Assembly (NCBI RefSeq): GCF_013266755.1
Contig: NZ_JABRWJ010000003.1
Coordinates: 372,001-436,000, forward strand
Direction: 5' to 3'
Origin: Pseudaquabacterium terrae
GTDB taxonomy: Bacteria; Pseudomonadota; Gammaproteobacteria; Burkholderiales; Burkholderiaceae_C
DNA length: 64,000 nt
A program made the translations under genes and the position numbers. Below, in pieces: positions 11,482 through 13,127 of the stretch. Under the pieces are notes generated by a model that did not search any database, had not been told where the DNA came from, and saw nothing but the letters and a program-made list of their open reading frames with translations. The number at the start of each line of letters is the position of its first letter. The stretch's first letter is position 1.

Positions 11482-11618
11482 CCGACGCGGCGGCTCAGGG
11501 CGGCCGCGTCGGCTTGGCGCCGCGCACGGGAACGCGCGGCGCGCTTTTGCAGCTCGAGCCGCTTCGAATCACGGATGCGTTGACGCCGCGCCTGAACTGC
11601 AGGCATCATTCGCGCCCC

Positions 11619-11690
11619 ATGCGTCCGCAACCGATCGCCATCACCATTACCACCACGACCGCGCAGCGGGACGTGGCGGTGGGCATCTAG
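11619..11690 (+). CDS. threonine/isoleucine-rich attenuator leader peptide (thrL-like)
   Basis: A 23-codon reading frame (ATG 11619, TAG 11688) whose product starts MRPQP, carries I-A-ITITTTT in the middle, and ends DVAVGI. Nine consecutive codons (11634-11660) hold five threonines and three isoleucines. It lies 93 nt upstream of a homoserine dehydrogenase gene and is followed by a rho-independent terminator, the arrangement of the enteric thrL leader. Ribosome stalling at the threonine/isoleucine codons when charged tRNA is scarce would allow read-through into hom. The ribosome-binding site is weak. The composition, position and RNA folding together make chance unlikely. Confidence 0.8.
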   Translation: MRPQPIAITITTTTAQRDVAVGI

Positions 11691-11750
11691 CAAGACAGAC
11701 GCTTTACACCCCCAGGCCCCGCCAGCGATGGACGGGGCCTTGTTGTTTCT
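11650..11750 (+). promoter_or_regulatory. transcription attenuator upstream of hom, with alternative RNA hairpins
   Basis: Four pairing regions can be drawn by eye. Region 1, CCACCACG (11650-11657, threonine codons), pairs with region 2 (11672-11682, CGTGG and TGG around a 3-nt bulge) as a pause hairpin. TGGCGG in region 2 (11674-11679) can instead pair with CCGCCA in region 3 (11719-11724) as an antiterminator. Region 3 also forms the 5' side of the terminator with region 4, CGGGGCCT (11733-11740). A ribosome stalled on the threonine codons leaves region 2 free; one that reaches the stop codon covers it. This is inferred from base pairing, without folding energies. Confidence 0.7.
11714..11750 (+). 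terminator. rho-independent terminator of the hom attenuator
   Basis: The stem AGGCCCCG (11714-11721) with CGGGGCCT (11733-11740) is perfect over 8 bp, with an 11-nt loop, and runs into the T-rich tract TGTTGTTTCT. It ends 33 nt before the hom start codon and 60 nt after the leader stop codon, so it must be bypassed for hom to be transcribed from an upstream promoter. Confidence 0.8.
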
Positions 11751-11783
11751 CCGTTCCGCCGCCGGCTCACAACGGAGAAACCC

Positions 11784-13127
11784 ATGCCCCCTTCCCACGT
11801 TCCCGGCGCGCCGTCCCCGGCGCGACCACCGATGCGCGTCGGCCTGCTCGGCAGCGGCGTCGTCGGCTCCGGCACCTGCCGCGTGCTCGAACGCAACCGC
11901 GCGCTGATCCGCGCACGCGCCGGCCGCGACATCACGCTGACGATGCTGGCCGCGCGCAACCTGCCGCGCGCGCGGCAGCTGGTCGGACCCGAGGTGGAGG
12001 TCGTCGACGATGCGATGCGCGTGGTGCGGCATCCGTTGATCGACGTCGTGGTCGAGGTGATCGGCGGCTGCACGGTCGCGCGTGAGCTGGTTCTGCAGGC
12101 GATCGCGCACGGCAAGCACGTGGTCACCGCCAACAAGGCGCTGCTGGCACTGCACGGCGACGAGATCTTCGCGGCCGCACGCGCCCAGGGCGTGATGGTC
12201 GCCTTCGAGGGCGCGGTGGCGGTCAGCATCCCGATCGTCAAGGCGCTGCGCGAGGGGCTGACGGCCAACCGCATCGAGTGGGTCGCCGGCATCGTCAACG
12301 GCACCAGCAACTACATCCTGACCGAGATGCGCGACAAGGGCGTGGCCTTCGCGGCCGCGCTGGCCGAAGCGCAACGGCTGGGCTATGCCGAAGCCGACCC
12401 GCGCTTCGACGTCGAGGGCATCGACGCCGGCCACAAGCTCGCGCTGCTGGCGAGCATGGCCTTCGGCATGCCGCTGCGCTTCGACGCGATGCACATCGAG
12501 GGCATCGGCGCGCTGCAGGCGGCCGACTTCCGGCATGCCGAGCAGCTGGGCTACCGCATCAAGCTGCTCGGCGTGGCGCGGCGCCAGGCCGCGGGCATCG
12601 AGCTGCGCGTGCATCCGGCGCTGGTGCCCGCCCGCTCGTTGATGGCCGGCGTCGACGGCTCGATGAACGCGGTGATGGTCAAGGGCGACGCCGCCGGGCT
12701 GACGATGTACTACGGCGCCGGCGCGGGCTCGGAGCAGACCGCGTCGGCCGTCATCGCCGACCTGGTCGACGTGGCGCGGCTGGCCGATGCCGAGCCCGCG
12801 CAGCGCGCGCCGGCACTGGCGTTCCCGCCGGAAGCGCAATCGGCTTGGGCCGTGCTGCCGCTGGCCGAGCTGGTGACGCGGCACTACTTGCGCGTGCCGG
12901 TGTGCGATGGCGATGCCGTGCTCGACGACGTGCTGGACGTGCTGGCGCGCCACGGCATCACGATCGATACGCATCGCGATGCGATCAGCGGCGCCGGCGG
13001 CCGCGAGCTGCTGTTCGTGACGCAGGACGCGCAGGAGGCCACGATGTGCGCGGCCATCACCGCATTGCAGGCGCTGCGCTGCGTGCGCGCAGCGGCCGTG
13101 CGCCTTCGAGTCGAGATGCTGGCGTAG
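11784..13127 (+). CDS. hom: homoserine dehydrogenase
   Basis: A 447-residue NAD(P)-dependent oxidoreductase reducing aspartate semialdehyde to homoserine, the branch point to threonine, isoleucine and methionine. A proline-rich leader of about 16 residues precedes the nucleotide-binding GLLGSGVVGSG motif. The catalytic domain carries TANKALLA and GIVNGTSNYILTEM, with the substrate-binding region FDVEGIDAGHKLALL, and a C-terminal ACT-type regulatory domain begins near residue 370. The ATG at 11784 has GGAGAA 4 nt upstream. No thrB, thrC or aspartokinase gene follows, so this is a stand-alone copy; a second hom linked to thrC may exist elsewhere. Its attenuator points to control by threonine/isoleucine supply. 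Confidence 0.92.
   Translation: MPPSHVPGAPSPARPPMRVGLLGSGVVGSGTCRVLERNRALIRARAGRDITLTMLAARNLPRARQLVGPEVEVVDDAMRVVRHPLIDVVVEVIGGCTVARELVLQAIAHGKHVVTANKALLALHGDEIFAAARAQGVMVAFEGAVAVSIPIVKALREGLTANRIEWVAGIVNGTSNYILTEMRDKGVAFAAALAEAQRLGYAEADPRFDVEGIDAGHKLALLASMAFGMPLRFDAMHIEGIGALQAADFRHAEQLGYRIKLLGVARRQAAGIELRVHPALVPARSLMAGVDGSMNAVMVKGDAAGLTMYYGAGAGSEQTASAVIADLVDVARLADAEPAQRAPALAFPPEAQSAWAVLPLAELVTRHYLRVPVCDGDAVLDDVLDVLARHGITIDTHRDAISGAGGRELLFVTQDAQEATMCAAITALQALRCVRAAAVRLRVEMLA

Follow-up and report, generated by a model that had tools for sequence, protein, structure and literature searches.

The locus examined here raises the question of how a second homoserine dehydrogenase gene (hom) of Pseudaquabacterium terrae is controlled. 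It lies in a 64-kb window, the whole stretch of DNA analysed, and a sequence-only reading had placed a threonine/isoleucine attenuator in front of the gene. We conclude, with a probability of about 0.84, that a ribosome-mediated threonine(/isoleucine) attenuator drives this second hom gene, that its leader ORF is probably leaderless, and that the Shine–Dalgarno (SD) sequence of the read-through RNA may be masked by a further hairpin, 5:6. The features of the region are listed in Table 1.

Table 1. Features of the hom upstream region; positions are those of the 64-kb window.
Feature	Position	Strand	Details
Sigma70-like promoter	11580–11609	+	−35 TTGACG 11580–11585, 18-nt spacer, −10 CATCAT 11604–11609
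Leader ORF MRPQPIAITITTTTAQRDVAVGI	11619–11690	+	23 codons, TAG stop 11688–11690
Pause hairpin 1:2 (folding)	11653–11676	+	arms 11653–11662 / 11666–11676
Antiterminator 2:3	11666–11722	+	11666–11683 with 11706–11722; fold of 11664–11729, −26.7 kcal/mol
Terminator 3:4 and T-rich tract	11714–11748	+	arms 11714–11724 / 11729–11740, −21.8 kcal/mol, bulged A 11732
Putative SD-masking hairpin 5:6	11745–11781	+	arms 11745–11755 / 11771–11781; SD GGAG 11774–11777
Proposed anti-sequestor 4:5	11730–11756	+	candidate pairing of GGACGGGG 11730–11737 with CTCCGTTC 11749–11756
hom paralog	11784–13127	+	homoserine dehydrogenase, 447 aa; PRK06349 E 1e-154; no Pfam ACT match at E ≤ 1

Leader ORF, promoter and alternative pairings

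The leader ORF is flanked by a porin-like gene and hom. Its codons 6–14 read I-A-I-T-I-T-T-T-T, with Thr at five and Ile at three of the nine positions, and the 23-codon leader described in the sequence-only reading could be read directly from the sequence. Both strands of the window were scanned for short ORFs having at least six Thr/Ile per 10 residues together with a downstream hairpin-and-T site; the leader was the only such site in the 64 kb.

The promoter of the window matches the consensus at 9 of 12 positions, and its −10 box ends 9 nt 5' of the leader ATG. The predicted transcript start is therefore likely to be the leader AUG itself or a position within about 4 nt of it. The same geometry was seen in 24 related Burkholderiales leaders (described below), in all of which the best promoter within 80 nt upstream ended 5–9 nt before the ATG (6 nt in 18 of them; ties were resolved in favour of the nearer promoter). 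Promoter scores of at least 9/12 were found for 21 of the 24 leaders versus 0.3% of 1011 control ATGs, namely other ATGs of the same loci, and SD-like sequences showed no excess before the ATGs of the 24 leaders. As the best promoter ends so close to the ATG in 24/24 leaders, the leader ORF is probably translated as a leaderless or near-leaderless mRNA. This promoter geometry was not seen by eye in the plasmid versions and the MITTITTAAT-type leaders described below.

Folding of the region yielded the overlapping pairings 1:2, 2:3, and 3:4, in agreement with the mutually exclusive pause, antiterminator, and terminator structures proposed earlier, with duplex energies of −18.4, −20.8, and −22.4 kcal/mol, respectively. 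The antiterminator 2:3 is the minimum free energy (MFE) structure of an RNA in which segment 1 is unavailable and the terminator still lacks its 3' arm. When segment 1 is hidden in the full RNA, the MFE structure still includes the terminator, and antitermination must therefore be kinetic. The T-rich terminator expected before hom was also found, although the tract that follows it (TTGTTGTTT, 11740–11748) is imperfect, with 7 T in 9 positions. When the 191-nt region was compared with 200 dinucleotide shuffles, the native sequence folded better than 199 of them (z −3.6).

The hom paralogs and their leaders

The gene behind the attenuator had been named as hom, and its match to PRK06349 bears this out. 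Two hom genes with the Pfam domain are present in the genome. The other one is located behind an aminotransferase-family gene and before thrC (TIGR00260, 246 bits, cut-off 167), and its upstream region has no Thr/Ile leader of this sort. This arrangement fits the earlier suggestion that the hom of the window is regulated apart from a housekeeping hom-thrC.

In a genus search of 21 genomes, a window-type hom (72% identical) was found in only one other genome, G143. Its leader is MRPPVRTLIAITTITTTAWCGPWW and its terminator is the same as that of the window, so the Thr/Ile codons and the terminator stem, the loss of which in close relatives had been named beforehand as evidence against an attenuator, are both kept in this one. 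On reading, the ORFs neighbouring the two paralogs differ. A manganese (yybP-ykoY) riboswitch match was also noted near the G143 paralog (L084 3873–4055).

Among the matches listed, six further genomes of the family have a second hom copy, each preceded by the leader MITTITTAAT or one near it. The use of one paralog as a query added two more of this type (7/200 genomes at E ≤ 1e-150, of which five had been identified before), and the leader of the G122 paralog is weaker (MITTMTAAAP). A Thr/Ile leader was thus present before 10/10 hom paralogs fetched among the matches listed, two of them of the window type and eight of the MITTITTAAT type. For the latter eight, segment 3 is paired with the terminator arm in the RNAalifold structure. 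None of 126 other hom loci, which include some genes fetched twice, had a short ORF with at least five Thr/Ile per nine residues. The leader score was run on the 134 hom loci having upstream sequence (five more had none); the L256 paralog carries a leader though its score is below 5. It should be noted that the MITTITTAAT-type leaders (L253–L258, L263, L266) also contain the conserved repeats GGCCACCTG / CAGGTGGCC / GCCACCTGG, followed by a terminator-like hairpin.

In an unrooted tree of 43 Hom proteins, in which several paralogs are long-branched, a branch with a support of 100/98 separates the 10 paralogs from the 33 others. The Pfam ACT domain gave no match at E ≤ 1 in all five paralogs tested and was present in both other hom copies tested (E 1.6e-9 and 5.7e-12). 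Since the paralogs have no recognisable ACT domain but carry a threonine-sensing leader, these results suggest that leader control has replaced allosteric control in the hom paralogs.

The same leader before other genes

A blastn search with the leader gave matches in 34 of 399 Burkholderiales genomes at E ≤ 0.01. Six of these loci were read, all with the same architecture; the gene behind it encodes an isochorismatase-like hydrolase in five genomes and is a short thrS in the sixth. A covariance model built from eight leaders (R1) found further members in the order Burkholderiales. In one large-genome family, R1 matched 33 of 120 genomes at E ≤ 0.001, the downstream genes being a mixture of thrS, isochorismatase-like, one MFS-like, and DUF2917-like or GNAT-like genes; one protein of each kind was tested and the rest were named by reading. 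The DUF2917-like and GNAT-like genes, of which one each was tested, were excluded, their leaders not being rich in threonine. In the genome of P. terrae itself, R1 gave 15 matches at E ≤ 10, of which only that in the window is clearly real; the two that follow in rank (24.4 and 21.0 bits) resemble His-rich coding sequence. The order-wide matches of at most 36 bits that were read (L180–L199) did not resemble Thr attenuators either. Among 369 genomes across the class, with eight candidates scored per genome, R1 matched only the genome of the window at E ≤ 1e-5, which is weak evidence of absence.

The hydrolase subfamily was found in 7 of the 399 genomes of the order at E ≤ 1e-30, and the attenuator precedes all seven genes. 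The same kind of leader was found before the same gene in 10 of 11 loci fetched from gammaproteobacterial plasmids, namely megaplasmids of Pantoea, Duffyella, and Rahnella and one Pseudomonas plasmid. R1, which was built without these loci, matched all 10 leader-bearing ones (E 2e-10 to 4e-4). An Aeromonas homolog of the hydrolase (65% identical to the query) and the more distant homologs of Variovorax and Caballeronia have no leader, and R1 gave no match at these three loci. A DNA search of plasmids with the thrS leader yielded three records, all unannotated at the site. The element is therefore not unique to hom: the same switch stands before unrelated genes and looks like an undescribed, movable threonine sensor. 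Two of the controlled families, hom and thrS (one protein tested), fit threonine supply or tRNA-Thr charging, and for isochorismatase-like genes we know of no link to threonine.

Altogether, 24 Burkholderiales leaders were collected from positions before hom, thrS, and isochorismatase-like genes, and aligned. In the inner pause stem and the terminator taken together, 94.7% of 357 cells were paired (91.7% in the inner pause stem, 95.8% in the terminator). Two-sided changes were found in 5 of 15 pairs, 4 of them among the 11 terminator pairs; this count was matched by 14 of 500 shuffles. Neither any of the 500 shuffles nor any slid version matched the covariation score, whereas further pair types, one of the five covariation measures, were at the shuffle level (241/500). 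The six core column pairs of the antiterminator 2:3 were kept in 19–24 of the 24 homologs, while the outer 1:2 pairs as drawn were kept in just 7–18 on the MAFFT columns. RNAalifold independently recovered the pairs of the terminator and of the pause hairpin, with two-sided changes, the outer pause pairs appearing in neighbouring columns. As the aligned rows are mutually related and the shuffle control is lenient, the terminator covariation supports the attenuator but is not a proof of it.

Several settings of the leader were recorded in passing. Apparently full-length thrS genes with a Thr-rich leader were seen at two loci (L218 and L220; R1 45 and 39 bits), and one genome (G629) has two R1 matches ~650 bp apart (L234 1541–1680 and 2196–2331). 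A TPP riboswitch match lies downstream of a Pantoea hydrolase gene (L286 1492–1611). In G638, a gene of the MFS family is located a few genes downstream of an attenuated short thrS (L296 567–1871 and 5963–7174), and in G564 the leader stands immediately before a related MFS-family gene (L297 6027–7280). Maybe, and this is speculation, the thrS and MFS-like settings represent resistance to, or export of, an inhibitor of threonyl-tRNA synthetase. A threonyl-tRNA synthetase homolog that confers resistance to obafluorin has been described (PMC9854587); to connect resistance of this type with the thrS and MFS-like genes found here is equally speculative. A further group of leader ORFs, whose ATG is immediately preceded by a TTGAC promoter, is rich in Ile, Ala, and Asn rather than Thr (L222, L225–L227, L229, L230, L232, L233, L237–L241, L244, L247, L248, L250). 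One downstream gene of this set was tested and encodes a DUF2917 protein, and several others look alike. This set is possibly another attenuator family.

Level of control, rival explanations and proposed mechanism

The hairpin 5:6, placed after the terminator, has an energy of −17.9 kcal/mol (z −3.3 versus mononucleotide shuffles). Its SD helix is 11 bp long in the window, a length equalled in 0/300 shuffles. Across 35 of the 37 attenuators (G629_iso and G417_thrS were dropped), the helix has a mean length of 7.9 bp versus 5.5 bp in shuffles, with p < 0.05 in 15 of the 35, window included. Meanwhile, the SD was masked in 19 of 22 leaders, which is barely above the 15.3 expected from SD-keeping shuffles; for this count, 23 of the 24 leaders were used (without G629_iso) and 22 were counted, no SD having been found in G417_thrS.

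The terminator 3' arm (GGACGGGG, with its bulged A) can base-pair with the anti-SD arm (CTCCGTYC). Control might be mainly translational, with 3:4 being an inefficient terminator and masking by 5:6 being opposed by the anti-masking pairing 4:5, for which 2:3 would free segment 4. We consider this possible but rather doubtful. It is favoured by nine gammaproteobacterial plasmid versions, which keep the Thr leader, 3:4, and the complementarity of segments 4 and 5, yet have just 1–3 T in the 5–10 nt after 3:4. Without a U tract, 3:4 of the plasmid versions should not be an intrinsic terminator, and control there is likely translational. According to a script, segments 4 and 5 pair at 8/8 positions in 24 of the 37 attenuators and at 7/8 in eight more; it put segment 4 of G457 and segment 5 of G612 in the wrong place, and both attenuators are 8/8 in a separate pairing analysis. 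Two-sided changes of 4:5 occur in G270 (C-G to A-U) and in Duffyella (G-C to C-G, with segment 6, the SD arm, changed too), the bulged A of the terminator finds a partner in 4:5, and the SD helix exceeds that of shuffles in mean length. Against this stand the masked-SD count, the single mismatch in those eight attenuators, and the poor pairing in G298, G640, and G1081. Moreover, equilibrium folding of 36 of the 37 attenuators (G1081 was dropped) favours 4:5 in 13, the window not among them, and opens the SD by more than 0.2 in 10. In the window, 4:5 pairs at 8/8 positions, but 23% of shuffles pair as well, and its −9.2 kcal/mol is weaker than that of 5:6. Several thrS versions also have good U tracts. 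Dual or translational control is plausible on these sequence data. Because the masked-SD count speaks against SD masking and the helix length for it, we left our estimate of the broadest reading unchanged. According to this reading, which is tentative and has less than even odds, a movable six-segment threonine sensor (1:2, 3:4, and 5:6 versus 2:3 and 4:5) with a leaderless leader mRNA would control both transcription and translation in Burkholderiales, and only translation on gammaproteobacterial megaplasmids. A hom paralog with no ACT match, spare threonyl-tRNA synthetases, and an uncharacterised hydrolase would each have captured this sensor, perhaps in response to natural inhibitors of threonyl-tRNA synthetase.

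The element could also be an ordinary thrL, i.e. a diverged leader of the gammaproteobacterial thr operon (Rfam RF00506) acquired together with hom. In thrL, a Thr/Ile-rich leader peptide and the 1:2/2:3/3:4 logic precede a homoserine dehydrogenase gene, and the element of the window resembles it in this logic and in its peptide. RF00506 matched three of the 22 other loci scanned at E ≤ 1 (29.4, 24.9, and 27.2 bits), the best being below the gathering score of 55 bits. However, RF00506 has no match to 11500–11850 at E ≤ 10, the genes controlled are different, and the window element has a probable leaderless start and an SD-covering hairpin after the terminator, which makes this origin improbable. 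It is very improbable that the Thr/Ile run arose by chance or reflects His-rich coding sequence read in the wrong frame, with the hairpin merely terminating the porin-like gene. His-rich coding in another frame does yield weak model matches, and a long spurious ORF overlaps the leader in another frame; nevertheless, the in-frame conservation with a terminator in G143 and before other genes elsewhere, the promoter located between the porin gene and the leader, and the singularity of the site in 64 kb all argue against it.

Among known systems, the his attenuator has six pairing segments, A–F, and is likewise a chain of alternately complementary segments; in the window element, the last hairpin covers the SD and the middle one is the terminator. 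T-boxes bind tRNA directly, whereas in the window element the translated leader should sense charging. The translational T-boxes of actinobacterial ileS are similar in being amino-acid shortage switches with sequestor and anti-sequestor hairpins (PMC1262725). In Sinorhizobium meliloti, the ATG of the trpL leader ORF forms the very 5' end of the leader RNA (PMC7298713), and a similar start is predicted here from the promoter. That system differs in being specific for Trp, alphaproteobacterial, and placed before other genes. No Rfam family, T-box models included, reached its gathering score anywhere in the window, and Thr_leader was not among the seven sub-threshold matches given by Rfam 15 over 11500–11850. 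Among open-licence PubMed Central papers, we found no title or abstract opening describing this element. Vitreschak and others (2004) reportedly treated proteobacterial attenuation, and a betaproteobacterial threonine attenuator could be mentioned there. Premature terminators were surveyed by Naville and Gautheret (PMC2965389), and the words threonine, thrS, and hom are absent from the main text of that survey. We regard the element as a genuine threonine(/isoleucine) attenuator whose family was not found in Rfam, a leaderless start being probable and the SD-masking layer possible.

Sequence and comparison establish the leader, the alternative pairings, the terminator covariation, the promoter position, the conservation with hom, and a further hom beside thrC; from these we infer ribosome stalling, termination, read-through, translational gating, and the physiological signal. 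The attenuator would work as follows. Transcription would begin at the leader AUG or no more than about 4 nt from it, and the 23-codon leader would be read as a (near-)leaderless mRNA. When charged tRNA-Thr is ample, the ribosome would get to the stop codon and cover segment 2; 3:4 would then form, transcription would mostly stop in the T-rich tract, and in the read-through RNA the SD of hom would be masked in 5:6. When charged tRNA-Thr (or tRNA-Ile) is scarce, the ribosome would stall on the Thr/Ile run and cover segment 1, so that 2:3 rather than 3:4 forms and hom is transcribed. The freed 3' arm of 3:4 may then pair with the anti-SD arm (4:5) and help to open the start of hom.

With these results, threonine attenuation is seen beyond the classical thr operon, in the form of a unit that stands before unrelated genes in beta- and gammaproteobacteria. 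The combination of leader-based control with a hom paralog in which ACT was not detected represents a testable evolutionary trade. Since the plasmid versions have no U tract, nature provides a single family within which transcriptional and translational attenuation can be compared. One subfamily of isochorismatase-like hydrolases has the sensor upstream almost without exception (7/7 Burkholderiales genomes and 10/11 gammaproteobacterial plasmid loci fetched); this is a clue to the function of these enzymes, and it points to threonine or tRNA-Thr charging.
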